A stretch of DNA of 36,950 bases from Paludibacteraceae bacterium (GTDB lineage: Bacteria; Bacteroidota; Bacteroidia; Bacteroidales; Paludibacteraceae). Each line of letters starts with the position of its first letter. Position 1 is the first letter of the stretch. This document shows, one piece after another, positions 8,193 through 34,768 of this stretch. Under the pieces are notes generated by a model that worked only from the letters and a program-made list of their open reading frames with translations, made no database searches and had not been told where the DNA came from. The stretch is taken from NCBI GenBank assembly GCA_017478725.1, contig JAFVDD010000047.1:1-36950 (forward strand). The letters are read 5' to 3'. The translations under genes and the position numbers were made by a program.

Positions 8193-10022
8193 TTAATCCA
8201 GTTTCAGAACGGCGAGGAAGGCTTTCTGCGGCACTTCTACGTTGCCTATCTGCTTCATACGTTTCTTGCCGCGTTTTTGTTTCTCCAGCAGTTTGCGCTT
8301 GCGGCTCACGTCGCCTCCGTAACATTTGGCGAGCACGTCTTTGCGCACCTGCTTGACCGTCTCGCGGGCGATGATCTTCGCGCCGATAGCCGCCTGGATA
8401 GCTATATCGAACTGCTGGCGCGGCAGCAGTTCTTTCAGTTTCTCGCACATGCGGCGGCCGAAATCAACGGCGTTGTCGCGGTGAGTGAGGGTAGAGAGCG
8501 CGTCCACTTGTTCGCCGTTCAAAAGTATGTCCAGTTTGACGAGGTTGGACGGCCGGAATCCGTTCATGTGCCAGTCGAACGATGCGTAGCCCTTGGAAAT
8601 ACTCTTCAGTTTGTCGTAGAAGTCAATCACTATCTCGCCTAACGGCATGTCGAAGAGCAACTCCATGCGGTTGCCGGAGATATACTCCTGTTTGACCAGT
8701 TCGCCGCGTTTGCCGAGACAGAGGGTCATGATCGGGCCGATATAATCGGCTGTGGTGATGACGGAGGCGCGGATATACGGCTCTTCGATGCGGTCGATCT
8801 CCGTGAGGTCAGGCATGCCGGCGGGATTATGCACCTCCACCATGCCGCCGTCTTTGGTATAGACATTGTAAGAGACGTTCGGGACGGTGGTGATGACATC
8901 CATGTCAAACTCGCGGTCCAGACGTTCCTGCACAATCTCCATATGCAGCAGTCCGAGGAATCCGCAGCGGAAACCGAAGCCCAGCGCCATCGAACTCTCC
9001 GGCTGGAAGGTGAGAGAGGCATCGTTCAGTTGCAGTTTCTCCAACGAGGCGCGGAGGTCTTCGTAATCCTCCGTTTCGATGGGATACACGCCTGCAAACA
9101 CCATCGGTTTGGCTTCCTCAAAGCCGTCGATGGCTTTGTCGCACGGACGGGCGACGTGGGTGATTGTGTCACCCACTTTGACCTCGGTGGATGTCTTGAT
9201 ACCCGAGATAATATAGCCTACGTTGCCGGCGGAAATCTCGTTGCGCGGACTCATGTCCAGTTTGAGAATACCTATCTCATCGGCGTCGTACTCTTTGCCG
9301 GTGTTCACAAACCGCACTTTCTCGCCTGTGCGCATCGTGCCGTTCACCACTTTGAAATAGGCGATGATGCCGCGGAAACTATTGAATACGCTGTCAAACA
9401 CCAGACATTGCAGCGGTGCTTTCGGATCGCCTTTCGGCGCCGGGATACGTTCTACTATCGCGTCCAAAATTTCCCTTACTCCTTCGCCCGTCTTGGCGGA
9501 GCAACGGAGAATCTCTTCGCGTTTGCAGCCCAGCAGGTCAATAATCTCGTCTTCTACGCGTTCAGGCATGGCGTTGTCCATGTCGCATTTGTTGAGGACG
9601 GGAATGATTTCCAGGTCGTGTTCGATAGCCATATATAGGTTCGAAATCGTCTGCGCCTGCACGCCCTGCGTGGCATCCACCACCAGCACAGCGCCTTCGC
9701 AAGCCGCAATCGAGCGCGAGACCTCATAGCTGAAATCCACATGCCCCGGAGTGTCAATGAGGTTTAAAGTATATGGGCCATCAGCATTCGGCTTTGAGCC
9801 TTCAGAACTCTGATTTCTGATAGCTGACGGCTGATAACTCATCTGTATGGCATGCGACTTGATGGTGATGCCGCGTTCTTTCTCCAGATCCATGTCGTCC
9901 AGCACCTGGTTTTCCATCTGGCGTACGTCCACCGTGCCGGTGATCTCCAGCATTCGATCCGCCAGCGTACTCTTGCCGTGGTCGATATGTGCTATGATGC
10001 AAAAATTCCGTATCTTATCCAT
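8193..10022 (-). CDS. lepA: Elongation factor 4 (LepA)
   Basis: LepA/EF4 is a ribosome-associated GTPase that affects translation under stress and ribosome biogenesis. The 609-aa product has G1 [15 protein letters not shown] (residues about 11-25), switch I RGITIKSH (about 50-57), G3 DTPGH (91-95) and G4 NKCD, followed by EF-G-like domains. The LepA-specific C-terminus is [25 protein letters not shown]. Between switch I and G3, residues 64-83 ([20 protein letters not shown]) replace what is normally a short hairpin. This stretch is written in 7-bp units (9778-9835) and roughly accounts for the excess over the about 595-600 aa usual for the family. It heads the lepA-nhaD-yqeY-dedA operon. Confidence 0.96.
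9778..9835 (-). repeat. In-frame heptamer array, CAG type, in lepA
   Basis: On the coding strand the units are CAGCCGT, CAGCTAT, CAGAAAT, CAGAGTT, CTGAAGG, CTCAAAG, CCGAATG and CTGATGG, decaying away from the CAG form. They encode [19 protein letters not shown] in the G domain, between switch I and the DTPGH motif. Confidence 0.8.
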
Positions 10023-10053
10023 TAAGTCCTACTTATCCAAATTAAATCGGCTA

Positions 10054-10085
10054 CAAAGATACAACTTTTTTTTGACATGTGCAAA
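10054..10085 (-). promoter_or_regulatory. lepA operon promoter
   Basis: On the minus strand, TTTG (plus 10082-10085) and TATCTTTG (plus 10054-10061) are separated by 20 bp, a full Bacteroidetes -33/-7 match about 32 bp before the lepA ATG. Confidence 0.8.
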
Positions 10086-10173
10086 TATAGTTGAATTTTT
10101 ACATTTCAAAATCACGGAATAATATACTATGTATATTATAGGGTGGGGTATGATACGATATTCACCCGACGCG

Positions 10174-10280
10174 ATCCCGATGCGCCCCCGAAGCGGTACT
10201 GACGCTGCGCCGGCTCCGAAGAAAGCCCGATGTGAACACGAAGCGGCCTCGGCTCTGATAAAAGCCCGATGTGAGCCTGT
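10174..10280. repeat. Degenerate direct repeats in the lepA-korA intergenic region
   Basis: Within the 354-bp lepA-korA gap, CCCGATGyG...CGAAGCGG recurs at about 10177-10196, 10227-10246 and, partially, 10266-10275. A longer pair reads CGGCTCCGAAGAAAGCCCGA (from 10211) and CGGCTCTGATAAAAGCCCGA (from 10250), offset 39 bp, each followed by TGTGA. I see no open frame or known RNA here. The rest of the gap holds the two divergent promoters. Confidence 0.6.
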
Positions 10281-10313
10281 CTGTCCTTAAAAAAAGATTT
10301 TTCTCCGTTTGCG

Positions 10314-10345
10314 CTTGCGTATGTGCAAAAAATGTATTATCTTTG
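10314..10345 (+). promoter_or_regulatory. korAB promoter
   Basis: TATCTTTG at 10338-10345 is a perfect -7 box. CTTG at 10314-10317 gives a 20-bp spacer; a TTTG at 10308-10311 is 26 bp away. The tonB promoter at 28147-28178 has the same CTTG-at-20 arrangement. Confidence 0.7.
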
Positions 10346-10376
10346 CAGTCGCATTTAATACCAAACATCAATAAAG

Positions 10377-12299
10377 GTGAAAAACATTGTAGTTCGATTT
10401 TGCGGAGACTCGGGCGACGGCATGCAGCTGACGGGTAATATGTTTGCACAGCTGGCAGCCGAAATGGGCAACGAGATCTCCACTCTGCCGGATTTTCCCG
10501 CGGAGATTCGTGCGCCGCAAGGTACGTTAGGCGGCGTGAGTGCTTTCCAAGTAGAGTTGGGACATGAGGTTTATACCTCGGGTGACAAAGCGGATGTGGT
10601 GGTAGCAATGAACGCTGCCGCGCTGAAAGTGTGTACGTTAGGTTCGCATTTCAACCATCCGCAGGCGCATTTTGACGAGGAGTTTTCGTTGTACCACAGG
10701 CACGCGATAGTGATTGTCGATACGGACTCGCTGAGCGACAAAGACTTGGAGAAGGCGCAATTCCACACCTCCAACCCCTTTGAGGAACTCGGCATTCCCG
10801 AGACCGTGCAGATCGTGCCGGTGGCGCTGACAACGCTGACCAAAGAGGCGCTGAAGCCATCAGCCGTCAGCCATCAGCCGTCAGAAAAAGCCGAAAGCTC
10901 TTTTAATTTGGACAACAAAGCCGTGCTCAAATGCCGCAACATGTTTGCGCTGGGGCTGATTTATTGGCTGTTCGACGAGCCGATGGAGAAAGCTATTCAT
11001 CTGCTGGAGGAGAAATTCAAAAAGAAACCGGCACTGGTGGCACCGAACACCAAAGTGATGGTGGACGGCTACAACTACGGGCAGAACCTTGCGCTCAATG
11101 TACAGCAAGTGCATATTGAGGAGCCATCAGCTATCAGCCATCAGAATTCAGCTGAAAGCTCTTATACCTCTATTGCCGGCAACAAAGCGACGGCGTGGGG
11201 ACTGATAGCAGCGGCGGAGAAAGCAGGCAAACGGTTGTTCCTCGGTTCGTATCCTATCACGCCGGCTACGGATATCCTGCATGAACTGGCGGCGCGCAAA
11301 GACATGAACGTTATGGCTATTCAGGCGGAGGACGAGATAGCGGGCGTCTGCACGGCTATCGGCGCCGCTTTTGCAGGTGATCTGGCTTGCACAAGCACTT
11401 CCGGTCCCGGCCTGAGCCTCAAATCCGAGGCTATCGGCCTGGCTGTCATGGCGGAGTTGCCGTTGGTGGTGATAGACGTGCAGCGCGGCGGTCCGAGTAC
11501 GGGTCTTCCTACCAAGACGGAGCAGACGGATTTGCTGCAAGCCCTGTATGGCCGCAACGGCGAGTGTCCGGCGGTAGTGATTGCCGCTTCTTCGTCCGCC
11601 AACTGCTTCGATTTTGCCTACGAGGCATGCAGGATTGCGCTGGAGAATATGACGCCTGTCATACTGATGACCGACACCTATCTGGCGAACGGAACCGCCC
11701 TCTGGCGTATTCCCAAGCTGGCTGAGTTGCCGGAGATAAAGCCGCAAGGCGTGCCCGAAGAACTGAAGGGGCATTACAACCCTGCTCTGCGCGACGAACG
11801 CGGCGTACGCTATTGGGCTTTTCCCGGAATGGAGGGGTATGAGCACCGCAATATAGGTCTGGAGCGTGACGCAACGCGAGGCACGATCTCCACCAACCCC
11901 GAGAACCATGAGCAGATGGTCCTTGCCCGCAAGCACAAGATAGAGCAGATCGCGGACCGCATTCCAGACCTGAAGGTGATGAAGGCGCATGGCGAACAGC
12001 GAATGGACGAATGTCTGCTGGTCGGCTGGGGCAGTACAGAAGGGCACCTGCATGCTGCGGCGAACGAGCTGGGCTGCGATCTGGCGCAGTTCAATTATAT
12101 CTGCCCGCTGCCGAAGAACACGCATGAGGTGCTCAGCCGTTACCAACGGATTATCGTCTGCGAACTCAACACCGGCCAGTTTGCCGCCTATCTGCGTTCA
12201 CAGTTCCCGGATATCCAGATAGAACAATACAACGAGATTCAGGGGCAGCCGTTTGCGGTTGAAAGGATAGTCAACTTTGTTAAATCTATAGTCGATTAG
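10377..12299 (+). CDS. korA: 2-oxoacid:ferredoxin oxidoreductase alpha subunit (KorA-like, fused gamma-alpha)
   Basis: With KorB it would oxidatively decarboxylate a 2-oxoacid, probably 2-oxoglutarate, to the acyl-CoA while reducing ferredoxin. The N-terminal gamma domain starts VVRFCGDSGDGMQLTGNMFAQ and contains FPAEIRAPQGTLGGVSAFQV. The alpha domain contains GSYPITPATDILHEL, QAEDEIAGVCTAIGAAFAG, TSTSGPGLSLKSEAIGLA and QRGGPSTGLPTKTEQTDL. The start is a GTG, with the promoter 32 bp upstream. At 640 aa it is longer than I expect. Two stretches of 7-bp units lie at residues about 160-175 (KPSAVSHQPSEKAES) and 249-262 (EPSAISHQNSAESS), in the linker between the gamma and alpha domains. The substrate is inferred from family resemblance; other 2-oxoacids are possible. 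Confidence 0.92.
   Translation: MKNIVVRFCGDSGDGMQLTGNMFAQLAAEMGNEISTLPDFPAEIRAPQGTLGGVSAFQVELGHEVYTSGDKADVVVAMNAAALKVCTLGSHFNHPQAHFDEEFSLYHRHAIVIVDTDSLSDKDLEKAQFHTSNPFEELGIPETVQIVPVALTTLTKEALKPSAVSHQPSEKAESSFNLDNKAVLKCRNMFALGLIYWLFDEPMEKAIHLLEEKFKKKPALVAPNTKVMVDGYNYGQNLALNVQQVHIEEPSAISHQNSAESSYTSIAGNKATAWGLIAAAEKAGKRLFLGSYPITPATDILHELAARKDMNVMAIQAEDEIAGVCTAIGAAFAGDLACTSTSGPGLSLKSEAIGLAVMAELPLVVIDVQRGGPSTGLPTKTEQTDLLQALYGRNGECPAVVIAASSSANCFDFAYEACRIALENMTPVILMTDTYLANGTALWRIPKLAELPEIKPQGVPEELKGHYNPALRDERGVRYWAFPGMEGYEHRNIGLERDATRGTISTNPENHEQMVLARKHKIEQIADRIPDLKVMKAHGEQRMDECLLVGWGSTEGHLHAAANELGCDLAQFNYICPLPKNTHEVLSRYQRIIVCELNTGQFAAYLRSQFPDIQIEQYNEIQGQPFAVERIVNFVKSIVD
10855..10901 (+). repeat. 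In-frame heptamer array, CAG type, korA copy 1
   Basis: Units CCATCAG, CCGTCAG, CCATCAG and CCGTCAG follow in perfect register, then AAAAAGCCGAAAGCTCTT. The peptide is KPSAVSHQPSEKAESS. The flank GCYGAAAGCTCTT is shared with the second korA copy. Confidence 0.85.
11122..11161 (+). repeat. In-frame heptamer array, CAG type, korA copy 2
   Basis: Units CCATCAG, CTATCAG, CCATCAG and AATTCAG are followed by CTGAAAGCTCTT. The peptide is EPSAISHQNSAESS. Unit and right flank match copy 1, located about 260 bp upstream. Confidence 0.85.
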
Positions 12300-12333
12300 T
12301 CATATAGTCAACTAGTCAAATAGTAATCTAGTA
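12288..12333 (+). repeat. Junction array between korA and korB (TAGTCAA type)
   Basis: Runs of TAGTCGA, TTAGTCA, TATAGTCAA, CTAGTCAA, ATAGTAAT and CTAGTA span the end of korA and almost all of the 40-bp gap to korB. The korA stop (TAG, 12297-12299) is itself part of a unit. Confidence 0.7.
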
Positions 12334-12339
12334 TAAAGT

Positions 12340-13407
12340 ATGGAAGCATCTCAATTCAAATCGGACCAATACGTACGTTTCTGTCCCGGCTGCGGCGACC
12401 ACGCTATCTGTATGGCGCTTCAGAAAGCTATGGCGCAGACAGGCATCCCCACCCACCAGGTGGCGGTAATAAGTGGTATCGGTTGTTCCAGCCGCATGCC
12501 GCACTACCTGAACACGTACGGTTTCAATACCATACACGGTCGCGGCGGCGCTATTGCTACGGGCGTCAAGACTTCACACCCCGAACTGACTGTCTGGCAG
12601 ATGAGCGGCGACGGCGACTGTCTGGCTATCGGCGGCAACCATTTCATCCATGAGATCCGCCGTAACGTCGATCTCAATGTGTGTATGTTCAACAACCGCA
12701 TCTACGGTTTGACCAAAGGCCAGTATTCGCCTACCAGCCCGAAGGGCTTTGTGAGCAAGTCGTCGCCTTTCGGCACCGTGGAGCGTCCGTTCGTGCCTGC
12801 CGAACTGGTACTGGGCGCGCGTGGCACATTTTTCGCCCGCACACTGGATGTGGATGTGCCTACGACTGTCGATTGCCTTGTGGCTGCGCAGCAACATAAA
12901 GGCTGCTCGATAGTGGAGTGTCTGGTCAACTGCGTGATTTTCAACAACGGTACCCACGCGTGGATAGCCGACCGCGAGCAGCGCGCCGAACATTCTATTA
13001 TTTTGAAGCACGGCGAGAAGATGATCTTCGGCAAGAACAACGACAAGGGATTAGCTATCAGCTTTCAGCCGTCAGATCTCAGTCTTCAGCTCATTGTAGT
13101 GCCGGCGGATGACGAGCGTGTGCTGGTGCATGACGCGCATCGTCAGGATCCGACCCTCCACCGCCTGCTCGCCCTGATGGGGCAAGAGAGGAATCTGGAG
13201 GTAATGGCGAATGGCGAAAAGCAAGAGGACGAAAGTCAACTGCCTATCGCCTTGGGTGTCATCCGCGACGTAGAGGCAGAGACCTACGACCAGGCGGTCA
13301 ACCGCCAGATAGCCGAGGTGCGCGGGAAAGCCAAGGCGCAGAACTTTGACCAACTGACCGCCACACTGGAGCAGTGGACGTCGCGTTCGGCAATCGGGTC
13401 GCTTTGA
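12340..13407 (+). CDS. korB: 2-oxoacid:ferredoxin oxidoreductase beta subunit (KorB-like)
   Basis: This is the thiamine-pyrophosphate-binding subunit that pairs with KorA. It opens with YVRFCPGCGDHAICMALQKA, the usual beta-subunit start. The conserved GIGCSSRMPHYLNTYGF and HGRGGAIATG follow, then the TPP/Mg motif GDGDCLAIGGNHFIHEIRRN and NNRIYGLTKGQYSPTSPKG. At 355 aa it appears longer than typical homologues. The extra residues coincide with a CAG-type array (residues about 237-251, GLAISFQPSDLSLQL) and an AATGGCG-type array (about 288-296, MANGEKQ). It lies 40 bp after korA with no separate promoter. Three hairpins follow its TGA. Confidence 0.94.
   Translation: MEASQFKSDQYVRFCPGCGDHAICMALQKAMAQTGIPTHQVAVISGIGCSSRMPHYLNTYGFNTIHGRGGAIATGVKTSHPELTVWQMSGDGDCLAIGGNHFIHEIRRNVDLNVCMFNNRIYGLTKGQYSPTSPKGFVSKSSPFGTVERPFVPAELVLGARGTFFARTLDVDVPTTVDCLVAAQQHKGCSIVECLVNCVIFNNGTHAWIADREQRAEHSIILKHGEKMIFGKNNDKGLAISFQPSDLSLQLIVVPADDERVLVHDAHRQDPTLHRLLALMGQERNLEVMANGEKQEDESQLPIALGVIRDVEAETYDQAVNRQIAEVRGKAKAQNFDQLTATLEQWTSRSAIGSL
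13051..13093 (+). repeat. In-frame heptamer array, CAG type, in korB
   Basis: Units TATCAGC, TTTCAGC, CGTCAGA, TCTCAGT and CTTCAGC encode LAISFQPSDLSLQL in the C-terminal third of KorB. These units are more diverged than the korA copies but keep the 7-bp TCAG period. Confidence 0.8.
13202..13224 (+). repeat. In-frame heptamer array, AATGGCG type, in korB
   Basis: Two perfect AATGGCG units (after GAGGT) and a decayed AAAAGCA unit encode MANGEKQ. The unit matches the murC stretch at 1635-1672. Confidence 0.55.
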
Positions 13408-13439
13408 CTGACCGCCGCGCGGTCATTAGGGCGACCGAT
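13393..13439 (+). terminator. Nested hairpin over the korB stop codon
   Basis: ATCGGgTCGC (13393-13402) pairs with GCGACCGAT (13431-13439) with one bulged G. It encloses a perfect inner hairpin TGACCGC-CGC-GCGGTCA (13409-13425). The korB TGA (13405-13407) is inside the outer loop. No T-run follows, so a structural or RNA-stability role is as likely as termination. Confidence 0.45.
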
Positions 13440-13450
13440 GCCTTCGCTCT

Positions 13451-13474
13451 CCCCACGAATTAAAATTCGCGGGG
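13451..13474. terminator. Second hairpin after korB
   Basis: CCCCaCGAATT (13451-13461) and AATTCGcGGGG (13464-13474) form an 11-position stem with one A-C mismatch. The loop would be very small unless the innermost A-T pairs open. Confidence 0.4.
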
Positions 13475-13482
13475 GCCCCAAT

Positions 13483-13521
13483 TACAAAAATTGCGAAGCT
13501 TTTAGCCTCGCAATTTTTGTA
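13483..13521. terminator. Bidirectional terminator between korB and the giant gene
   Basis: TACAAAAATTGCGA (13483-13496) pairs perfectly with TCGCAATTTTTGTA (13508-13521), a 14-bp stem with an 11-nt loop. Each strand has ATTTTTGT in its 3' arm. It lies between convergent genes and would serve both. Confidence 0.75.
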
Positions 13522-13529
13522 CATTTTAG

Positions 13530-13550
13530 AATTCACAATTCTCAATTCTC
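13530..13550 (-). repeat. Junction heptamer array overlapping the giant-gene stop (AATTCTC type)
   Basis: The plus strand reads AATTCAC, AATTCTC, AATTCTC. The stop codon of the minus-strand giant gene (13542-13544) lies inside it, and the array supplies the last residues (EN) of the protein. Confidence 0.7.
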
Positions 13551-16500
13551 CTCGTCCTTCACCTTGATACCCTGCTGGTTGTACAGACGGCCGTTCTTGC
13601 GGATATACATTTGTCCGTCGCGGATGAATTTCTCGGCAGACTGACCGTTATTCCTGTCATCTTCTACCTGGTCAATCGCGGTGTGAGGAATCTCGGTCGC
13701 TATCACGGTCAGATAGAGCGTGAACGTAGAGTCGCAGCCGTGTACCGAGGTATAGGTGACGGTCAGCGTGGTGTCGCCTGCTGCTATCTCGCTCAGCTCA
13801 ATATTCTGCCAGATAACGGAATCTCCCTGATTGATAGTCTGGTAGGCTGTCACGCGCGATGCCGGCATGATATAAACGACAAGGTGTACAATCGAGTCAC
13901 CGCCGTAGATATTCTTCTCGCTGACAAGCACATCCTCTTCTTTGCTGCGGCGGTAGGTCTTGCCTTCATATACAATCCTGTCGCCGGCGCAGCCGTAGAT
14001 AGTGTCGTTGCCGTAGGTGGTGATCATCGGCAGCACACTCAGGTGGAGTGTATAGGTGGAGTCACAATCGTTGACTGTCCGGTATTCGGCTACCAGTGTG
14101 GTGTCGCCTTCGGGCAACTGACCGATAGCTATACCCTGCCAGATGTCGTACATGCCCGCGTGAATCTCCATGCTGTCCGTGAAGCTGTAAACAGGGTGAA
14201 CACTTACCGTGAGGCGCACAATCGAGTCACCTCCCTGGTCGTTCTTCTCGCTGAGCAGCACTTCGGTTTCGGTTGCGTCGTTGTACCAAACACCTTCAAA
14301 CTCAATGCTGTCGCCCTCGCAGATAGCAGCCGCATAATCGCCGTAGGTGGGAGCCGGAGCCAGCACTGTAACCTCAACCGTAAAGACGGTAGGCAGATAG
14401 TAGATATTATCCTCCGGCGTGAAGATGACGTCCATTTCGTGGGTGCCTATTCCCGGAACGGTGTCGGGTTTAGCCCAAGCGAACGTACCAGCCACCTCTG
14501 CAACGCCATTCGTGAGTTGCGACTCGCTCAGCGGCTGACCAAAGACGATAGATGTAGCTTCCGGCTTGACGGTGATAACAGGCTCTACCGGCTCGATATT
14601 CTGTACCTCTATCTGGCGTACTACAGGTTCGGCAGCTGCGTTATGTTCGTCGCCAGCCTGCGTAGCTGTGATAGTCACAACGCCCGGAGCCACTGCATGC
14701 AGCACATTGCCCTCAATATAAGCTATTTGCTCATCCGAACAGGTGTAGCTTACCTCCAGACCGGAAGTGGCTGTGGCTGTGAAGGTATGTGTGCCGTTGA
14801 GCACCATCGGAGCCAGCTCTTCCATCCACTCGATCGTTTGCGGGCGTTTGTCGGTTGTGACGGCCACATAGAGGATAGCCGGTGTGTAATTGTCGGTGTC
14901 ATCCGGAGTGAAGGTGGCTTCGTATTCAACTGTACCTACCTCGGGTTGCTCATTCGGATTCGACCATGCGAACACACCTGTGGTATTGGTCTCGCCGCCC
15001 GTTATTTCAGCCTCTCCCAGCGTCTGTCCATAAACCAGCCTGCCGGCCGCAGGAGCAACGATGACCACAGCCTCTGCTTTGCCGATCTCCGTATAGATAG
15101 GTCCGAATACCTCGCTGTCGGTATGGTTGGCATCGCCGATGAGTTGGTAATAAACAGTATATTCGCCTGCATTGAGAGCTGTCGGCACCAGCGTGCTCCA
15201 TTCGCCCTCTTCGCCGAGCCGGTAGTAGATGGCGCCATCGGCTGTCTCGCCGGCGTTCACCAGCGCCTGTGCCTCGCCGGTATAGATGAGGCTGCTGAGG
15301 GCTGAAGGCTGAACGCTGACGGCTGCCACGGCTTTGTTAACCGTCACAACCACTACGGTCTCAATAGCCTCATAGTTGTTGGCGTCAGCCGGCAGGAACA
15401 AAACCGCCATCGCATGGCTGCCTACCTCCGGCAGCGTGTCCGGCGCAGCCCAAACAAACGTACCTTCTACGGTAGCCTCGCCGCTCATAACGGACTCGCC
15501 GAGCGTCTGACCGTACTGGATGGCTGTAGCCGCAGGCTCCACTGTAATGGCCGGTGTGGCTTTGGCTACGGTCAGGCTAACCTCTATCTTGACTACGGCG
15601 TACAGTTCCAGGTCTTCCGGCGTGAAGAGCACGGGGTAGGTGTGTGTGCCGGCCTGTGCTACGGAGTCCGGATTAGCCCATGCGAACGAACCTGCTACGG
15701 AAGCCGCACCGCCTTGCAGCGCTACCTCCGACAGTGTGATGCCATACACTGCGTTTTCGGCTACAGCAACAGGCATTTCCTCTATTCGTGCCAGCACGTT
15801 GATGACGGTCACGGTAACTGTACCCTCTACGCTGTTGTAGTTGGCGTCAGCCGGCGTGAAGACTACGGTGCGCTCATAGGTGCCCGGACGGAGACGGTTC
15901 TCCGTGGGGTTCTTCCATGTGAACTCACCCTCTACATTGGCTTCGCCGTTCTTGAGCTCGGAGTCACCCAGGCTCTGGGCAATCGTGATATCGGTAGCCG
16001 TCGGCCAAGTGGTTACCACCGGAGTGGCTTTCTCCACACGCAGGCTGACCAGCTTGGTGCTGGCAGCGTAGATGCCGCTCTGCTCCGGCGTGAAGACTAC
16101 ATTATAGCTTTGCGTACCAGCAGCAGGTTTGGTTTCCGGATTCTCCCATGCGAACGAACCTTCCACAGTAGCCTCGCCGTCACTTAGAGCGGACTCACCG
16201 AGCGTCTGGCCATAAACGATAGTTGCTGCGGTAGGTGCTGTGGTGATCGTGGTGGCTACTTTATGGAGGACAATAGTCTTCTCTACAGCCGGAGCAGCAT
16301 CGTATTTCTCGTTGCCTTCCTGGGTGGCAGTGATGGTTACTGTGCCGCCGCTGACGATCACCAGACGGCCGTCCTCGACGTAAGCCACGGCGCTATCCGA
16401 GGTGAGGAATGTTACCTCCAAACCGCTGGAAGCGGTAGCCGCAACGGCAATCTCGTCGGTAGTCTGTGCCTCTGCGGGCAACTCAAAGTCGTTGATCGAC

Positions 16501-19500: not shown

Positions 19501-20426
19501 TGTTCGGAGGATGTTACAGTCGTTGCTGCAGTCACCTGCGAACCTCCTTCGGCTGCTGTAAACCAACCTGCGAAATCATAGAAACGGCGGGTTGGAGTAG
19601 GCAACGCACCATAGGTGTCTCCCTTGACAACCTGTTTGCTGGCGGGATTGACGCTTCCCCCTTCACCATTCGGGGCAAAGGTGACTGTCTGTTTCCAATG
19701 GGCATACAATGTTTGTCCCGTTGTCAGGTTGTATGTGGATGTATTGGTAATCAGAGAACCTCCGGTAGCAGCAGTGTACCAACCGGCAAACTCATAACCC
19801 TCACGCGTAGGGGTAGGCAGTGTGCCATAGGTCTTGGTATAAGTCACCGTTTTGCTGCTGGTGGCTACACTACCGCCGTTGGCATTGAAGGTCACCGTGT
19901 ATGTGGCCAATGAGAAGTACGCATAGCGGTTAATGGTAGTCGGTGAACCCTCACTTTTTGAAGTTGCTACTAAGGTCTCCGTGTATTTTAAGTCAGACGA
20001 CTTCAAACTACCGCCAGCCAGAGCATCGTACCAACCATCAAAGTGGTAACCTGCCCATGCTTTTGCTTGTAGATTGACTGTAAAACTTACGCTCGAGTTC
20101 CACTTTGCTGTGTTGCCACTTTTCGACGAGTTGTCGTCTGAAATGTAATTATCATCTGTTTCCGGCCAGTTACCATTGAGGCTTACATATACACCGCCTG
20201 CAGTCCGATTGATAGAGTTGTCAAACACCGCATAGGCGTTGCATTTTCCGTAATAGGTGTCATAGGTCAATGCAGCCCATGTATTTGTACTTGTTCCCGC
20301 CAATAGGCAGAGTAACATGCAAATGCGGAGCAAGCCGAGGGCGCTTCGGGAGCACTTCGGAGCAATCCTAGACTTTACACTATTCACACTACTTGTAAAT
20401 AATTGATTTTTAGTAAATTGTACCAT
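13542..20426 (-). CDS. Giant secreted repeat protein (InlB repeats, Ig-like and MBG-like modules, C-terminal tag)
   Basis: The gene encodes 2294 aa and is probably a surface or secreted adhesin-like protein; no function is assigned. The N-terminus has a long basic n-region, then a hydrophobic core [13 protein letters not shown] (about residues 32-44) and a likely cleavage after NTWA. Two InlB/Listeria-Bacteroides repeats follow at about 176-244 and 247-316 ([29 protein letters not shown]). Next are Ig-like segments with TATATSGxxITYTS motifs. From about 1390 to 2030 lie six approximately 80-residue modules with YGQTLGES, FAWxNP and FTPxD signatures, plus one MBG_2-like module. Two [11 protein letters not shown] modules precede a C-terminal tail [21 protein letters not shown]-type heptamer array lies at about 1700-1713. 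The gene has its own promoter. Confidence 0.9.
15290..15328 (-). repeat. In-frame heptamer array, CAG type, in the giant gene
   Basis: On the coding strand the units are CAGCCGT, CAGCGTT, CAGCCTT, CAGCCCT and CAGCAGC, encoding [13 protein letters not shown] at the boundary between an 80-residue module and the MBG_2-like module. Confidence 0.8.
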
Positions 20427-20564
20427 ATCTTTTTTGTGTTAAAATGATTCGTTTTTTGTGTTTCAATTCTTGTTTTAGCGTTTGGTGCTCTCTGTTTGGT
20501 AAAAAATATACGATTATTAAGATTGTTCGATAATTTTGTACCGTTTGGAGCCAAAAAACGAGTA

Positions 20565-20690: not shown

Positions 20691-20734
20691 CCCCGATAAT
20701 CCCCCGATAATCCCCCGATAATCCCCCGATAATC
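20691..20734. repeat. Perfect 11-bp tandem repeat (CCCCGATAATC x4)
   Basis: Four identical copies run without interruption, then a broken fifth (CTCCGA). Looser GATAAT copies occur upstream at about 20670 and 20529. It lies in the 397-bp gap between the giant gene and the PCMD operon, about 95 bp upstream of the giant-gene -33 box. The period is close to one DNA turn. The rest of the gap holds the promoter at 20565-20596 and the terminator at 20753-20786. Confidence 0.9.
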
Positions 20735-20752
20735 CTCCGACGCACTACCGAC

Positions 20753-22392: not shown

Positions 22393-22416
22393 TGTTTTGT
22401 TGGTTTTGTTTATTGA

Positions 22417-25287: not shown

Positions 25288-25306
25288 ATGTCGTTATTTG
25301 TTAGAA

Positions 25307-25337
25307 CTGAATTCTGAATGCTGAATTCTGAATGCTG
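25307..25337 (-). repeat. Junction heptamer array immediately after the tonB stop
   Basis: The plus strand reads CTGAATT, CTGAATG, CTGAATT, CTGAATG, then CTG and the complement of the stop codon (25338-25340). On the gene strand the units CATTCAG/AATTCAG alternate perfectly, starting right after the TAA. Confidence 0.85.
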
Positions 25338-28106: not shown

Positions 28107-28146
28107 AATCTTTTGTTTGTACCCCTTATTGGTTCAAAAAACGCTG

Positions 28147-28178
28147 CAAAGGTACTGCTTTATTCCGAAATACACAAG
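28147..28178 (-). promoter_or_regulatory. tonB-PCMD operon promoter
   Basis: On the minus strand, TACCTTTG (plus 28147-28154) is a perfect -7 box and CTTG (plus 28175-28178) lies 20 bp upstream of it. The start codon is about 40 bp downstream. Confidence 0.7.
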
Positions 28179-28282
28179 TGCAAATATTAATAGAAAACTT
28201 ACTTTCTTTACTATTTTATTAAAATCTTAATAATCGTATATAAATTCAGTAGATTTTAGCTATTCTCTATATGTGGTATATT

Positions 28283-28313
28283 AAAAATAGACCCTCGTTC
28301 GGAGGGTCTATTT
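28283..28313 (-). terminator. Rho-independent terminator after htpG
   Basis: AAATAGACCCTC (28285-28296) and GAGGGTCTATTT (28302-28313) form a perfect 12-bp stem with a GTTCG loop. On the minus strand the stem is followed by further T's. It lies 23 bp past the htpG stop. Confidence 0.88.
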
Positions 28314-28335
28314 AGAACATTTTTACGGTTGTTTG

Positions 28336-30297
28336 TTACAGTAGTTCTACCGATCGGTTGACGAATTTGGCAAGAGCCTCGCCTTTGAGTTGTCCGCTTG
28401 CCAGCAGCGCGATGTCGATGAGCTGTTTGAGGCGCTCGTCCTCGCCTTGCAGGTTATAGACGGTCTTGATAACGGTCTCTTTCTTCGGCTCCTCGCCTTC
28501 TTTCTCCGCCGGTTTCTCTACCTCCTCGGATACCTGTTCGCTGGTCATCTTGGCTACCAAGTCCTGGATGAGCGGATGGGCGGTATTGAGAACGAGGTTG
28601 TAACTGTCCGGCATCTGACCGTAGAACGACATGCCTTGCTGGTGCGCACTCATCTCTTTCATCCGGCGCATAAACTCGTTCTGCGTCAGGAAGACAGGCA
28701 GTGCATCGGCGGAAGCAGCTTCGCAGGAGACGTAGTAATTCAGTTTTTCCTCTTTGGGGATAAAGGCCTCAAAAGCTTTCCTGAGACCCTCTTTCTGCTC
28801 GTCGGTATAGCTGTCCTTGGCGGCATCCTCTTTGCGGATCAGGTTCTCGATTGTGTCACTATCGACACGTACGAAACGCAGTTTGCCTTCGTCGCCGGCT
28901 TTCTGTTCAAACTGGCTCATGGAGTGTACATCCAGTTCGCCGTCCATCAGCAGCACGTCATAGCCTTTGGCTTTGGCACGCTCGATAAAGGTGTAGTTGG
29001 CGTCGGTGTCCTGTGTGTATAGAACCACCAGGTTGCCGTCCTTGTCGGTCTGCGCGTCTTTGACCTTGCTCTTGTATTCGTCCAGCGTGAAATACTTGCC
29101 TTCGATATTCTTGAGCAGCGCAAACGAAACGGCTTTCTCATAGAACTTCTCGTCGGTCAGCATACCAAACTGGATGAACATCTTGATGTCGTCCCATTTC
29201 TTCTCGAAGTTCTCGCGGTCGTTCTTGAACATCTCCGCCAGTTTGTCTGCCACTTTCTTGGTGATGTATCCGCTGATTTTCTTGACGTTGTTGTCGCTCT
29301 GCAGGTAGCTGCGGCTCACATTCAGCGGGATATCCGGACTGTCTATCACGCCGTGCAGCAGCGTCAGGTATTCCGGCACGATATTTTCCACCTCATCGGT
29401 CACATACACCTGGTTGCAATAGAGCTGTATCTTGTTGCGGTGAACATCCAGGTTGCTCTTGATCTTCGGGAAATACAATATACCCGTCAGGTTGAACGGG
29501 TAATCCACATTCAGGTGGATATGAAACAGCGGTTCGTCCATCTGGGTGGGGTAGAGCTCATGGTAGAACTTGTCGTAGTCCTCGTCCTTGAGGTCTGCGG
29601 GTTTGCGTGTCCAGGCGGGTGTCACATCATTGATGATGTTCTCTTCGTCCAGTTCCACTTGCTTGCCGTCCTTCCATTCTTTCTTATTGCCGAACGCAAT
29701 CTCTACGGGCAGGAACTTGCAGTATTTCTTCAGCAGCCCTTCGATAGTGGCTTCCTCCAGATACTGGCTGAACTCATCGTCGATATGCAGCACAATATCC
29801 GTACCGCGCGCGGCCTTGATGGTGTCCTCCATCGTATATTCGGGATCGCCTTCGCAGCTCCAGTGAACGGCTTTGGCGTCCTCCTGATAACTCTGGCTGA
29901 AAATCTCCACTTTCTTGCTCACCATGAAGGCGGAGTAGAAACCCAGACCGAAATGACCGATGATGGCTTCCGTCTTGTCTTTGTATTTGTTGACGAACTC
30001 TTCGGCGCCGGAGAAAGCTATCTGGTTGATGTATTTGTCCACTTCTTCGGCAGTCATGCCTATGCCGTGGTCGCTTATGGTCAGCGTCTTCTTGTCCTTA
30101 TTAATACTTACACGCACGCGTGTGTCGCCCAAATCGCCTTTCACTTCGCCTACCGACGACAGTGTTTTCAGTTTCTGGGTGGCATCTACGGCATTGGAGA
30201 TCAGTTCACGCAGAAAGATCTCATGATCGGAATACAGAAATTTCTTGATGACGGGGAAAATGTTGTCACTCGTTACCCCAATATTACCTTTGCTCAT
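28336..30297 (-). CDS. htpG: Molecular chaperone HtpG (Hsp90)
   Basis: HtpG is the cytoplasmic ATP-dependent Hsp90 chaperone. The 653-aa product has the N-terminal GHKL ATPase motifs FLRELISNAVDATQKL (residues about 26-41), ISDHGIGMTAEEVDKYINQIAFSG (about 74-97) and IGHFGLGFYSAFMV (about 113-126). The middle-domain signature GVIDSPDIPLNVSRSYLQ is also present. The C-terminal dimerisation region carries an acidic/lysine stretch (EKPAEKEGEEPKKE) typical of the Bacteroidetes form. No consensus promoter was found in the 101 bp upstream, which hold a GTCATGAC-type heptamer array. It may be read through from susCD, or its promoter may be non-standard (heat-shock type). Confidence 0.96.
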   Translation of the reverse strand: MSKGNIGVTSDNIFPVIKKFLYSDHEIFLRELISNAVDATQKLKTLSSVGEVKGDLGDTRVRVSINKDKKTLTISDHGIGMTAEEVDKYINQIAFSGAEEFVNKYKDKTEAIIGHFGLGFYSAFMVSKKVEIFSQSYQEDAKAVHWSCEGDPEYTMEDTIKAARGTDIVLHIDDEFSQYLEEATIEGLLKKYCKFLPVEIAFGNKKEWKDGKQVELDEENIINDVTPAWTRKPADLKDEDYDKFYHELYPTQMDEPLFHIHLNVDYPFNLTGILYFPKIKSNLDVHRNKIQLYCNQVYVTDEVENIVPEYLTLLHGVIDSPDIPLNVSRSYLQSDNNVKKISGYITKKVADKLAEMFKNDRENFEKKWDDIKMFIQFGMLTDEKFYEKAVSFALLKNIEGKYFTLDEYKSKVKDAQTDKDGNLVVLYTQDTDANYTFIERAKAKGYDVLLMDGELDVHSMSQFEQKAGDEGKLRFVRVDSDTIENLIRKEDAAKDSYTDEQKEGLRKAFEAFIPKEEKLNYYVSCEAASADALPVFLTQNEFMRRMKEMSAHQQGMSFYGQMPDSYNLVLNTAHPLIQDLVAKMTSEQVSEEVEKPAEKEGEEPKKETVIKTVYNLQGEDERLKQLIDIALLASGQLKGEALAKFVNRSVELL

Positions 30298-30316
30298 AGT
30301 GTTTTAGTTTTTATTT

Positions 30317-30350
30317 CGTCGTGTCATCATGACGTCATGTCGTCATGTCG
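30317..30350 (-). repeat. Junction array upstream of htpG (GTCATGT type)
   Basis: The plus strand reads GTCGT GTCATCA TGACGTCA TGTCGTCA TGTCG, 7- and 8-bp units containing the palindrome TGACGTCA. It lies 20-53 bp before the htpG ATG, between susD and htpG. Confidence 0.65.
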
Positions 30351-30398
30351 AAAAAAATATCTCAAATCCTGTGCCAAGGTGTCGTTTCTGCCAAATTG

Positions 30399-32051
30399 TC
30401 AGTTGTAGCCTTTGTTCTGCTTCAGACGGCTGTTGGTCTGTAGCGCTGTCTGCGGAATGGGGAATACAGTCAGGTATCGGTCGTTGTTTTGTTCTGTGTA
30501 TGTGCCGAAACGAATCTGGTCTTGTCGGTGCCAGCCTTCCCACATCAGTTCCATCCAGCGTTCGTAATAGATATTCTCAAGCGTGGCTTCACGGGGACTG
30601 ATTCTTACACTGCGGGCGATCGCCTCGCGCATTCGCACAATCTCGAACTCGCTTTGCCCGTCCTCTCCGTTGCGCACCTTGGCTTCCGCTATCATCAGAT
30701 ATGCGTCTGCCAGACGGAAAAGCACGATGTCTGTGTTACGCAACTGCCCGTCGAAGATGCCGCCCGGGTCGTATGAATATTTGAACATCCGTGCGCCGGC
30801 GGTAGCCACATATGGACTGCCTGTCAGATCTATTTCCACTTCGTTGGGACGGTAGATCAGTGTGTCGCCTGACGAGAGAATGAGCGGTTTGCCGTTCACG
30901 CGTACAACATCAGCAAAAAAGGTGGTGGCAAAGCGGCAATCCCGGTCTTTCGTTCCATAGCCGAACACCTTCAGGGTTTCCAATGTGGCGCAGGAACCGT
31001 TCTCGCCTCCGTATCCATAGGCTGCCGCGTGCTGGTAATGCAGGCTGCGGAAGAGGTTCTTGAAACGGTTGCGGTAGATTTTCGGATCCATTGGGATGGT
31101 GAAGATGTTCTCGGGCGCATCTTCGTTATATACTTTGAAACAATCGGTTTGGCTCTCGCACAGAGTGTAGCCGGCAGTGGAATGGAGTAGCTTCTGCCCG
31201 TATAGTTTCACGGCCTCCCATGCGTTCTTTTTGCCGTCATCCGGGCCGCAATCCAGCATAATGCTTTTCCCGTCAGGGTGCACGTTGTCCGTCCAGTCGT
31301 CATCTGTCCATATCTCTGCATTAAGGGCAAGTTTCATCAGCATAAAACAGGCGACAGGCTGGGTGATGCGTCCGTAGTATTCGCCCTGGCTGTTGCTTCG
31401 TGCGTCCGCCAGATACGGCATAGCTGACTGCAGTTCGTTCCATGTGAATGCAAATACCTCGCTTCGCTCCGATTGCACAATATCATGTAGCGGCATCGTC
31501 AGTTGGGTCACTATGGGCACCCGGCCGAACAAATCTGTCAGATACATATATGCCAGCGCCCTTACTGCGCGCACCTCGGCGCTGCAGGCCGATAGTTCCT
31601 CGCTGCTCATCAGGTGGCCGTATGCGTCCAGCATGTGCAGCGAGTTGTTGCATAACCCGACGAGTTGAAAGAGATATACCCACGCGTTCTCGCAGCATTC
31701 ATTGTCGGCAGCCCAGGTATGCAAGTGCAAATCCACCCATAGACCGCCGTCCCACCAGTCTCCTCCGCGTACGGGGATGATGGCTTCGTCCGATGCAAAG
31801 GTCTGTAGATCATATACGCCGCGATAGGTGCCTTGGAGGCCTTCGCCGTCCACGGTGCCGCCTATATGGTCGTACAGCGAAAGCACGGATTGTTGGCGCA
31901 GTACGGCGGCCGAAGTGATTACCGCTTCTTCCGGCTGACCGGAACGTGCTTCTTCATCCAGAAAACCGCAGCTGCTTATCAGCAATGTGACTGCAATCAG
32001 GAAAACGGTTCGGGAGGCCGGCAGGCCGGTATGTCGATATATCGTTGTCAT
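30399..32051 (-). CDS. SusD/RagB-family surface lipoprotein
   Basis: SusD-like lipoproteins sit on the outer-membrane surface as lids for a SusC transporter. The 550-aa product has a lipoprotein signal (VFLIAVTLLISSC, lipidated Cys about residue 28) followed by GFLDEEARSGQPEEAVITS. Helical TPR-like regions such as AEVRAVRALAYMYLTDLFGRVPIV are at about 140-160, and VLFRLADAYLMIAEAKVRNG lies towards the C-terminus, which ends VFPIPQTALQTNSRLKQNKGYN. All are hallmarks of RagB/SusD. It begins 2 bp after the susC stop. No glycoside hydrolase or regulator is next to it in the window, so its substrate (glycan or peptide) is open. Confidence 0.93.
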   Translation of the reverse strand: MTTIYRHTGLPASRTVFLIAVTLLISSCGFLDEEARSGQPEEAVITSAAVLRQQSVLSLYDHIGGTVDGEGLQGTYRGVYDLQTFASDEAIIPVRGGDWWDGGLWVDLHLHTWAADNECCENAWVYLFQLVGLCNNSLHMLDAYGHLMSSEELSACSAEVRAVRALAYMYLTDLFGRVPIVTQLTMPLHDIVQSERSEVFAFTWNELQSAMPYLADARSNSQGEYYGRITQPVACFMLMKLALNAEIWTDDDWTDNVHPDGKSIMLDCGPDDGKKNAWEAVKLYGQKLLHSTAGYTLCESQTDCFKVYNEDAPENIFTIPMDPKIYRNRFKNLFRSLHYQHAAAYGYGGENGSCATLETLKVFGYGTKDRDCRFATTFFADVVRVNGKPLILSSGDTLIYRPNEVEIDLTGSPYVATAGARMFKYSYDPGGIFDGQLRNTDIVLFRLADAYLMIAEAKVRNGEDGQSEFEIVRMREAIARSVRISPREATLENIYYERWMELMWEGWHRQDQIRFGTYTEQNNDRYLTVFPIPQTALQTNSRLKQNKGYN

Positions 32052-32053
32052 TC

Positions 32054-34768
32054 CTAAAATTTGATTTGCAATGAAAAACTATAAGTCCGGCTCACCGGGT
32101 ACGACCGTTTGTCATCTACGCCGAGTGTGTTGTTGAGTACCGTGCTGTTGATGATAGGCGTCAAGCCCGAATAGCTGGTGATAGTGGCCATGTTGTTCAC
32201 GCTCACCGACAACCTGAGCGAAGAGATGTTATACTTCTTCTGCGGCTGGATGCTGATGGCGGACGGCTGATATGTCCATCCTATCGTTACGTAATCGATG
32301 TTCACGTAATCGCCTCTCTCCAGCCAGTAGTCACTCACTGTCAGGTCGTCTATGTTTTTCTCCGGTGCTCCCCTCATCACGTTGTAGAAAGGCAGACTGC
32401 CCATGTTCATGTAGCTCAGCGATGTGCCGTTGTATATTTTATGTCCGAAAGCCCCGTTCAGCTGGACGCTCAGGTCAAACTGTTTGTATCGCACGTTGAT
32501 ATTGCTGCCTAACATCACTTTGGGTGTCGCCTGACCGCACACACGTCTGTCGCCGCCGTCAGAAAGATCAACATACCCGTCGCCGTCAATATCCTCTATC
32601 GCATAATGCCTCTCGCCGTTCTCGTCAACATCCAGTCCCGTACAATGCGGCAGATAGAATACGCCCAGCGGATAGCCCGGAATCTGATAGACCACATCGG
32701 TATTGCCGCCGTGCAGACCGGCGCCGTTCACACCCGCAATAGGGGTATAGGTCGGCGCAGTCAGATATTCGTCTCTGTAATAGCCGTTCAGCGAGATTAA
32801 CTTGTTTTGCTGCCACGTCAGGTTCAAGCCGATGTTCACATCCCAATCGCGCGTTTGTACGGCTGACAGAGCAAAACCGATCTCCACGCCTTGGTTCTGC
32901 ATCTTGCCCAGGTTGGCCAGCATCTTGTCAAAGATGAACGGCGGCACCGGCACGGTGTAATTATACAGCATGTCGTAGATGTACGAATAGTAGTAATCGG
33001 CGGTCAGCAGCACGCGGTTGTGCCAGAAACCCCATTCCATGCCTGCGTTCGCCGTCTGCGTCTTTTCCCATGTCAGGTCGGGGTTGGCGTTACGGCTCGG
33101 ACCTGTAATCACGTTCTGCAATCCGTCCGTTTCTGTGATTCCTGTCGGCACCATCAGATCCAGCGACTGATAGGCGGCTATACCTCCTAAGTTGCCCGAC
33201 AAACCCCAGCCGCCGCGGATGTTCAGACGCGTGATCTCGTCCACTTCCGCCAACCAGCTCTCTTTCTTCATGTCCCAGGCGATACTGGCTGAGGGAAAGA
33301 AACCCCATTTGTGCCCTTTGCTGGCTACCGAACTGGCATCCCCGCGGGCGGTTAGTGTTACTGTGTAACGACCCAATCCCGTGTAACTGATGCGCCCCAT
33401 CACACTCGCCATCCTCTGGCGCTCGTAACTGCTGCCTGTCCCTTCCCATAAACGCATGGCGCCTATCGACAAGTTGTCATAGCCGTAAGCGTTGGACGCC
33501 AGACGGTTGGCGGTGACATGGAATCCCGTAGCGGTGCGACCCTGCAGCTCGCCTAAGATATTGGCTTCCAAATGGTGGCTTTCGCCCCAGTCATGAGCAT
33601 ATCGGATCATCGCATTGGTTAACCACACATTGGTTTTACCGGCGCCGCGATACACCTTGCCCGTACTCTCCATATAGGTCGGATAGAAATAACTGTCGTC
33701 GTCCGAGTCGTAACTGTAACTGCCGTATATCGAAGCGGTCAGGCCGTGGCCGATGTTACCCGTCAGCCGCAAATGCGTGTTGAAATGCATGGCGTCATTA
33801 TGCTTCTTGATATCCAACAGACCCAGCGGATTGTTTATCTGGCTGGCGTCGGTATAACCGTCATAGCCTCCGCTGGCGTTGCGTGAGGTCGGAAAAGTGG
33901 GGTTGAACGCCGCGGCGGAATAGAAAGTCTTCTGCACGTCGTTCAGGTACTGGTTCTTGCCGATAGCGCCGAACAATCCCAGATCAATCGTCAGATGTTT
34001 GTCCAGCACATGCTGGGTGACATCCACTTTGGCCGTCAGGTTTTTGGTGCCTGTCTCGCGTACGATACTGTTGTCCTGGCTGTAACTGATAGCGCCGCGG
34101 TACATGCCGTTCTCCGTGCCGCCGCCTAAGGATATATGGTGGTTCTGCACAAAGCCCGTACGGATAATCTCGCGCTGCCAGTCGGTGGAGGCGCCGCGGT
34201 CGGAAATCTTCAGGCCGTGGTCTGCCGTTACCTGCCGGTACTCGTCTGCGCTCAGCATTGGCAGATACTTGTCCGCGTGGGCGAATCCTACGTTGCCTGC
34301 ATAACTTACTGAAAACTTGCCTATTGCGCCTCTGCGCGTGCGTACCTCTATCACACCTGCGGCGCCGCGTGCTCCGTATTGGGCTGTCTGGGCGGCATCC
34401 TTCAGAATAGTGAACGACTCGATATCTCCCGGAAAAATAGTGGACAGGGTGCGGAGATCCGATGACATACCGTCTATGATTACCAGCGGTTCGTTGCCGC
34501 CTGTCAGCGAGTGGTTGCCTCGCACACGGACCGACGACAGCATGGCTTCCGGGTTGGTGTTCGAGCCTACGGAGACACCAGCTGCCTGCCCGTTGAAGAT
34601 ATCCAGCGAGTTGGTGAGGTGGCCCCGTTGCTGGGTCTCTACGCGCAGGGTGTCGGTCAGCGACTCCTGCTGACTGATGTCAGTGGTTGCCGTTTTACGC
34701 GGTGCCGCAATGACCAGCATTGGCAGACCGGTCAACAACAAGATAGAAAATATTGATTTCTTAGCCAT
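32054..34768 (-). CDS. SusC-family TonB-dependent transporter lacking the usual N-terminal domain
   Basis: This is the outer-membrane barrel partner of the adjacent SusD protein. The ATG at 34768 (MAKKSIFSILLLTGLPMLVIAA) gives 904 aa with a good signal peptide. An upstream in-frame ATG at 34810 falls inside the promoter and is not used. The plug has VRVRGNHSLTGGNEPLVIIDGM, FPGDIESFTILKDAAQTAQYGARGAAGVIEV (about residues 80-140). SusC proteins usually begin with a carboxypeptidase-regulatory domain and a DEVVVVGYG-like TonB box. Here the mature protein goes almost straight to the plug, with only DTLRVETQQRG in that position. A CAG-type array near residues 832-844 encodes YQPSAISIQPQKK inside the barrel. 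Confidence 0.92.
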   Translation of the reverse strand: MAKKSIFSILLLTGLPMLVIAAPRKTATTDISQQESLTDTLRVETQQRGHLTNSLDIFNGQAAGVSVGSNTNPEAMLSSVRVRGNHSLTGGNEPLVIIDGMSSDLRTLSTIFPGDIESFTILKDAAQTAQYGARGAAGVIEVRTRRGAIGKFSVSYAGNVGFAHADKYLPMLSADEYRQVTADHGLKISDRGASTDWQREIIRTGFVQNHHISLGGGTENGMYRGAISYSQDNSIVRETGTKNLTAKVDVTQHVLDKHLTIDLGLFGAIGKNQYLNDVQKTFYSAAAFNPTFPTSRNASGGYDGYTDASQINNPLGLLDIKKHNDAMHFNTHLRLTGNIGHGLTASIYGSYSYDSDDDSYFYPTYMESTGKVYRGAGKTNVWLTNAMIRYAHDWGESHHLEANILGELQGRTATGFHVTANRLASNAYGYDNLSIGAMRLWEGTGSSYERQRMASVMGRISYTGLGRYTVTLTARGDASSVASKGHKWGFFPSASIAWDMKKESWLAEVDEITRLNIRGGWGLSGNLGGIAAYQSLDLMVPTGITETDGLQNVITGPSRNANPDLTWEKTQTANAGMEWGFWHNRVLLTADYYYSYIYDMLYNYTVPVPPFIFDKMLANLGKMQNQGVEIGFALSAVQTRDWDVNIGLNLTWQQNKLISLNGYYRDEYLTAPTYTPIAGVNGAGLHGGNTDVVYQIPGYPLGVFYLPHCTGLDVDENGERHYAIEDIDGDGYVDLSDGGDRRVCGQATPKVMLGSNINVRYKQFDLSVQLNGAFGHKIYNGTSLSYMNMGSLPFYNVMRGAPEKNIDDLTVSDYWLERGDYVNIDYVTIGWTYQPSAISIQPQKKYNISSLRLSVSVNNMATITSYSGLTPIINSTVLNNTLGVDDKRSYPVSRTYSFSLQIKF
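32237..32273 (-). repeat. In-frame heptamer array, CAG type, in susC
   Basis: On the coding strand the units are TATCAGC, CGTCCGC, CATCAGC, ATCCAGC and CGCAGAAG, encoding YQPSAISIQPQK between TIGWT and KYNISSLRLSVS near the C-terminal barrel strands. Confidence 0.75.

Follow-up and report, generated by a model that had tools for sequence, protein, structure and literature searches.

The window analysed here, a stretch of 36,950 nucleotides from a Paludibacteraceae bacterium, raises the question of how arrays of a seven-nucleotide unit came to lie inside conserved genes, and whether they serve a purpose there. The initial annotation listed six such sites, and five of these contain four or five perfect TCAG cores repeated every 7 nt. 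The unit is best written as TCAG+NNN, see Table 1, and the genic arrays of the window are in frame. The sixth site, in susC, is degenerate, its segment giving three-core matches with two and one mismatches only. Three perfect cores in phase are found 13 times in the window (overlaps counted), compared with a mean of 0.017 in 60 first-order Markov shuffles, and three-core matches with at most one mismatch 19 times, compared with 0.18.

Table 1. Heptamer arrays, inverted segments and carrier genes in the window.
Feature	Position	Strand	Remarks
lepA (EF4), array carrier	8193..10022	-	
Inverted degenerate arm of the lepA array	9781..9805	+	TCAG/TCGG/TGAG/TCAG every 7 nt; convergent with the array; absent from the initial annotation
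TCAGNNN array in lepA	9810..9834	-	4 cores; loop after KSHAIQM; +18 aa relative to the median of 29 species
korA (2-oxoacid:ferredoxin oxidoreductase alpha)	10377..12299	+	
TCAGNNN array, korA site 1	10860..10884	+	4 cores; clean insertion
Short degenerate inverted remnant after korA site 1	10885..10901	+	GCCGA-AA-GCTC; read by eye; absent from the initial annotation
TCAGNNN array, korA site 2	11127..11151	+	4 cores; loop also longer in 7/28 sister species, which have different repeats there
Inverted remnant CTGAAAGCTC directly after korA site 2	11152..11161	+	read by eye; absent from the initial annotation
korB (TPP enzyme C-terminal domain)	12340..13407	+	
TCAGNNN array in korB	13058..13089	+	5 cores; equal-length replacement, net insertion 0
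TCAGNNN array in linker of 2294-aa repeat protein (giant gene)	15295..15319	-	4 cores
Intergenic TCAGNNN array	25307..25331	-	4 cores; begins 6 nt past the stop codon of a 922-aa ORF
Degenerate TCAG-like segment in susC, doubtful member	32246..32270	-	2 perfect cores and 2 with one mismatch

Arrays with this core are dispersed over the genome. The assembly (G000) is a 2.16 Mb draft of 84% completeness, and 435.5 kb of it, about one fifth, in five contigs or parts of contigs including the window, was searched for arrays with at least three perfect cores, genic or intergenic status being assigned by a simple gene caller made for this analysis. This sample holds 55 arrays: 34 genic in the sense orientation, one genic antisense and 20 intergenic. 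The typical array has four cores and spans 25 bp, four being the commonest size. With up to one mismatch, the 17-base motif CAGCNATCAGCNATCAG has 136 overlapping matches in the whole assembly and its reversed control none. About twenty genes bear arrays in the sampled fifth. Seventeen of the 18 carriers outside the window were scanned (one is split between stretches) and all 17 contain Pfam domains; the carriers include RecG, RadA, AlaRS, UvrA with six arrays, RsgA with two, peptidyl-tRNA hydrolase (Pth), bL25 and PdxA.

Period 7 stands out among short arrays of any sequence. Their density in G000 is 18.6 per 100 kb at period 7 versus 4.6 at period 8, and 0.2 at period 7 after shuffling. Of periods 5-16 it is the most frequent one in G000 and also in eight of 12 sister species (samples of 13 to 80 kb each), while period 11 outnumbers it in the remaining four, G009, G011, G029 and G033. 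Genes hold 37 of the 81 arrays at period 7, 3 of the 20 at period 8 and 1 of the 16 at period 11. Periods 8 and 11 are also represented in the window. Octamer arrays lie at 12287-12332, 30316-30350 and 36537-36581, and those of the TCGTCATG type, which are mostly intergenic, turn up about eight times in the sampled part of the genome. An 11-bp array, CCCCGATAATC in 4.5 copies, adjoins the giant gene at 20691-20740; period-11 arrays form a second repeat class in the genus, 15 of the 16 in the G000 sample being intergenic.

The initial annotation had presented the open orientation of the genic arrays as a finding and had proposed to tabulate orientation genome-wide. Carried out on about one fifth of the genome, the tabulation gives the 34:1 bias above, but this is forced, because the opposite strand has TGA in every frame: on the reverse strand of an array TGA recurs every 7 nt, so that all three frames are visited within three units. 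Genic orientation is therefore uninformative on mechanism, and we discarded it as evidence; intergenic arrays between co-directional genes are 10 sense versus 7 antisense. The sole genic antisense array has one mutated core, and by arithmetic one of its frames stays open.

The genic arrays encode variants of (S)AISxQPSAVS. The first TCAG falls in codon phase 0, 1 and 2 in 13, 11 and 10 of the 34 genic sense arrays, and this near-equal use of phases shows that the constraint acts on the DNA and not on the peptide. In interior units outside the detection pattern (n=39), the core columns match in 92-100% of cases, while the three spacer columns equal those of the previous unit in 59, 41 and 26%. 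Among the 55 G000 arrays, no longer sequence common to the genic arrays was found. A mobile unit larger than the array was considered and rejected, as the common flanks were accounted for by neighbours that overlap, by arms of arrays and, in a few intergenic pairs, by 20-31 nt of shared sequence.

A division into contiguous variable columns and a core was also looked for in arrays without TCAG, and only a mild excess was seen, for three variable columns. These are contiguous in 7/29 arrays of G000, 21/52 of the genus, 29/77 of the cross-phylum set (among the matches listed) and 6/13 of G243, a genome from another family, where 0.20 is expected. The corresponding fractions for two variable columns are 5/12, 8/25, 15/39 (among the matches listed) and 0/3, with 0.33 expected, and for four columns 5/12, 6/16, 5/38 (among the matches listed) and 3/7, with 0.20 expected.

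Comparison of the carrier genes with their orthologues in sister species reveals what the arrays have done to the proteins. The initial annotation held that these proteins are longer than usual by about the array length. LepA is longer by 18 aa and KorA by 14 and 5 aa, each measured against the median of 29 species, but for KorB the claim fails. The LepA loop is short, 42 nt between anchors, in 17 of 29 species, and longer and of unlike sequence in the other 12, including G000 (the count is without G031, whose locus is longer in the protein alignment). Several of the long loops are heptamer arrays of other sequence, with one motif in G009 and G034 and others in G035 and G064. At korA site 1 the insert is found in G000 only, with 72 nt as opposed to 27-30 nt in the 28 other species, a gain of 42 nt. 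Site 2 spans 60 nt in 21 of 29 species and more in eight, where short repeats or palindromes can be recognised by eye. A third KorA loop has no TCAG in G000, while TCAG arrays occupy it in G006 and G061 at unchanged length, and other heptamers in G022, G015 and G001.

In korB the region across the array measures 96 nt both in G000 and in nine of the 15 other species in which the pattern could be measured; four have 93 nt, one has 90 nt and one has 117 nt, the last with a different insert. The pattern could not measure 14 of the 30 species, all of which are covered by the protein alignment, and there extra residues occur at the array position only in G034. Similarly, the array at one alaS site replaces 21 nt and leaves the length unchanged. 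The description of the arrays as insertions or expansions thus fits korA site 1 well, but korB and this alaS site are equal-length replacements. At another AlaRS site, G035, G007, G032, G026 and G017 have heptamer arrays of their own at a common length of 12 residues. The linker holding the array in the giant gene is, by eye, about as long as the neighbouring repeats of the same gene.

Taken together, the 12 G000 arrays in LepA, KorA, KorB, UvrA and AlaRS fall in 11 variable regions, in which the G000 protein differs from the median by +18, +14, +5, 0, +4, +10, -1, +6, -1, 0 and +2 aa. One locus each of LepA, KorB and AlaRS did not pass the cuts for these alignments, and one AlaRS row (G026) is a run of N. 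Judging from the aligned sequences, both insertion and replacement occur, at loops that are variable anyway. Loops of lepA, korA, uvrA and alaS hold period-7 arrays of other sequence in some sister species, and unrelated peptides are encoded there. The coding sequences of LepA, KorA, UvrA and AlaRS, 240 kb from the 29, 29, 24 and 27 species retained, contain 31 lag-7 segments versus 8, 9 and 0 at lags 8, 9 and 10, and none at lag 7 after codon shuffling; the harmonic lags 14 and 16 give 22 and 11.

Structures agree with the placement in loops. The solved LepA/EF4 chains 3cb4 and 5imq align to LepA with a gap at the array loop, and in a KorA model (12 sequences, mean pLDDT 54) residues 162-178, comprising array 1 and adjacent residues, are modelled with low confidence as a loop that joins helices 151-158 and 180-198, in a better modelled neighbourhood. 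The LepA model, with a mean pLDDT of 42, adds weak support only. The earlier proposal that the arrays are tolerated in protein loops and are lineage-specific is therefore borne out, by the gap in the LepA chains and by korA site 1, which is unique among 29 species.

Other repeats were observed in the same proteins. Palindromic elements rich in CCCTCCC/GGGAGGG lie in frame in loops of L053 (G022 korA), L271 (G034 korB) and L303 (G021 uvrA), and it is these same korA, korB and uvrA loops that bear TCAG heptamers in G000. Longer degenerate GACCGCTTCGCTGACAGA-type repeats are present in uvrA loops of G002, G034 and G026 (L304, L305, L309).

The sister species G360 (the genome of locus L146, uncultured Bacteroidales RUG13776) is also rich in the motif, with 88 matches. 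In 381 kb of it, 22 of the 55 G000 arrays have an aligned counterpart, six with in-phase cores and 16 without. Length differences between the two genomes are multiples of three at 14 of 15 genic sites, the exception being -23 in recG, and at two of seven intergenic ones, which upholds the view that the frame is kept. By base counts, the four ungapped shared arrays have identities of 56/56 in the core, 16/30 in NNN and 104/150 in the flanks; an array was counted as shared only if it had two in-phase cores, so that the core conservation is partly ascertained, and the arrays are few. In one shared array there are gaps of 14 nt and 7 nt, together with another gap of 3 nt. At the 16 unshared sites, G360 has strong lag-7 periodicity in four cases, one of them a decayed TCAG-type array, strong lag-8 in four, lag-6 in two and lag-9 in one; in random G360 windows strong lag-7 and lag-8 are seen in 1.2% and 1.5%. 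Swapping of heptamers at a site thus occurs but is not the rule.

The motif is unevenly distributed, with at least one match in 26 of 36 other species of the genus (0 to 108 matches each) and likewise in four of the 24 genomes that represent other families of the order. Four TCAGCNN units are found in 42 of 296 Bacteroidota genomes, the reversed control giving 12. A scan of 84,980 species genomes yielded at least 119 stretches with TCAGCNN arrays from many phyla; these were chosen for TCAGC arrays and are no census. In this set 168 of 210 arrays are intergenic, 36 genic sense and 6 genic antisense, and 112 of 166 have four units, the minimum required by both pattern and script (both counts among the matches listed). 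The period-7 density of 36.5 (among the matches listed) is likewise partly ascertained. The arrays of G000 thus resemble a class of heptamers present in many phyla.

Neighbouring arrays have a preferred polarity. Pairs within 60 nt are convergent rather than divergent by 9:1 in the G000 sample, 34:1 across phyla (among the matches listed) and 7:0 in G243, where 26 of 28 arrays are intergenic. Among the matches listed, 26 pairs have at least three cores per arm, and four cores are present in 17 of the left and 17 of the right arms. The arms are independent in NNN (identities 3/73 and 5/73 among the matches listed, 7% expected at random), which rules out that they are fold-back copies of each other. 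Arrays also tend to follow stop codons: of those with a sense gene on the left, 30 of 75 across phyla (among the matches listed) begin at most 13 nt past its stop, and 6 of 11 in G000 at most 11 nt past it. In G243, convergent TCAG pairs at loci L399, L402 and L403 share, by eye, a loop of about 45 nt, as if the pair had moved as a unit.

We suggest that the arrays probably form one family of dispersed TCAG+NNN repeats, which spread over the genome and inserted into or overwrote the sequence at many sites. Within genes, only copies with TCAG on the sense strand would survive, since TGA occurs in all frames of the opposite strand, and they would persist where the protein tolerates filler, i.e., in loops, linkers and termini, the encoded peptides presumably being neutral and without a function of their own. 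The arrays could have been made and moved by copying in trans during break or fork repair, with a switch into another array and back at TCAG microhomology; under such template switching the core would be preserved and the other three bases reshuffled, and selection on reading frame and fold would follow. The common core, the variable neighbours, the presence of both insertion and replacement, and the loops hit by different heptamers all fit array-to-array copying. However, we infer this mechanism from the pattern, no insertion or conversion event having been caught, and a native TCAG at the array edge, the possible microhomology, is clear at only one of seven inspected sites (an alaS site), which counts against it. 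Neither the polarity of convergent pairs nor the post-stop position is predicted by neutral copying, and both hint at function or a specific machinery. Neutral tolerance also leaves unexplained why octamers, which are open in one orientation and present, are rarely genic.

The polarity and the post-stop position are what a functional cis element would explain. The arrays, alone or as convergent pairs, would then be binding sites or mRNA 3' hairpins under selection, with the genic copies working too, and the polarity, the typical four cores in both arms with independent NNN, the starts close past stop codons and the conservation of the core over NNN would follow. We consider this possible but unlikely: it leaves the sequence exchange, with unrelated repeats at some of the same sites in sister species, unexplained, six arrays inside uvrA are hard to understand as sites, and match numbers per species span 0 to 136 within the genus. 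Local replication slippage, in which each array grew in place from a chance seed with 7 nt as the preferred slip length, gains from the dominance of period 7 among short arrays in G000 and across phyla (among the matches listed, partly ascertained), from homogeneous long arrays in other genomes and from the one shared array with unit-step gaps. It is nevertheless a rather improbable origin. Purely local slippage is hard to reconcile with a core that is kept while the other three bases vary and that turns up at dozens of unrelated sites, and the heterogeneous units within an array and the equal-length replacements also speak against it. Copying, slippage and a functional element are not exclusive, and intergenic pairs may be functional with genic copies as by-products.

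More speculatively, a dedicated process that heals DNA ends could have left heptamer arrays as scars throughout bacteria, and in this genus such scars would have been kept inside essential genes. A templated enzyme would extend each 3' end at a break in steps of 7 nt, each made up of TCAG, the 4-nt core for realignment, and three less constrained bases, and joining of the two ends would leave convergent, independent arms of about four units. Under such a process all pairs should be convergent, arms should be independent, some arms should stand alone, and resection should lead to replacement. A precedent exists in DRT10, a system of UG17 reverse transcriptase, ncRNA and SLATT protein; according to the available part of its description, this bacterial reverse transcriptase can add short tandem repeats by means of a 4-nt realignment segment (PMC12632851). 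We give it little credence. A reverse transcriptase as array maker was looked for and is not supported: only 10 of the 37 genomes searched (G000, 22 of the genus and 14 of the order) have PF00078 at E<=1e-10, among them 5 of the 23 genus genomes including G000, i.e., 4 of 22 sister species, and it is absent from G001, the second richest carrier. The two G000 reverse transcriptases (L039:7883-9388 and L045:14078-15208, contig C23) best match generic PADLOC RT models; one partly matches UG17 at 5.7e-21, but the generic model scores better. Divergent pairs, although few, do exist. Finally, selection for the peptide, with QPSAIS as a useful linker, is hardly credible, as the three codon phases are used about equally and unrelated peptides occupy the same place in other species, even if some of the peptides do lie in loops, linkers or termini.

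How do the dispersed TCAG+NNN arrays compare with known repeats? Rickettsia palindromic elements are longer palindromes of fixed family sequence. The likeness drawn to them by the initial annotation is one of effect only, in that in-frame foreign segments are tolerated in unrelated housekeeping proteins, while TCAGNNN arrays are about 25 bp, and no longer sequence common to the genic ones was found among the 55 of G000. The link by unit length to bacterial heptanucleotide repeats stands. Mrazek in 2007 reportedly described heptanucleotide long simple repeats and found unit length 7 to be the most abundant, and the repeats in coding regions, there and among cyanobacterial STRR, are said to be mostly multiples of three; what these repeats have in common with TCAGNNN is the unit length of 7. 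Borg ORF repeats, in the available text of PMC9879509, are alike in that recent arrays add protein segments and homologous proteins have different repeats, but differ in that all their unit lengths are divisible by three.

Closest in organisation are the Xanthomonas GGGAATC/(GGGANTN)n heptamers, which, according to the available text of PMC4692102, have four units as the modal number, form convergent pairs on opposite strands and lie close after stops on the coding strand and before starts on the non-coding strand. They share with TCAGNNN the 7-nt unit, conserved and free positions, the modal four, the convergent pairs and the post-stop position. They differ in the core, in G-quadruplex potential, which the listed G000 TCAGNNN arrays lack, none having a run of three G, and in being 89-93% intergenic; arrays are mostly intergenic in G243 and the cross-phylum set (among the matches listed) too, but not in G000. 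The TAACTGA (= TCAGTTA) direct repeats of Beggiatoaceae, cyanobacteria and five Bacteroidetes share the TCAG core and have few genic copies, mostly at protein ends, and the stop-codon constraint on orientation has already been stated for them (PMC4679880, available text). However, they consist of one exact heptamer, mostly before start codons in the main genome of that text, while in G000 TCAGTTA is a rare unit, NNN is free and the arrays lie inside domains of conserved proteins. Beyond the few genic copies in the available texts of PMC4692102 and PMC4679880, no paper describing heptamer arrays within conserved genes came up in a search of the open-licence literature, which is weak evidence of absence.

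We therefore read the arrays as a known class of dispersed heptamer repeat that has, unusually, colonised protein loops. The convergent TCAGCNN pairs of many phyla suggest a common process that has been described only piecemeal, in Xanthomonas, Beggiatoaceae and cyanobacteria. Repeat units that are not a multiple of three are expected outside genes, and here they are found in an aminoacyl-tRNA synthetase, DNA repair enzymes and a translation factor. The arrays thus provide a natural mutagenesis map of the loops that tolerate replacement in widely conserved proteins. They also make the origin of widespread bacterial heptamer repeats testable, as orthologous genes, unlike intergenic regions, give the states before and after.
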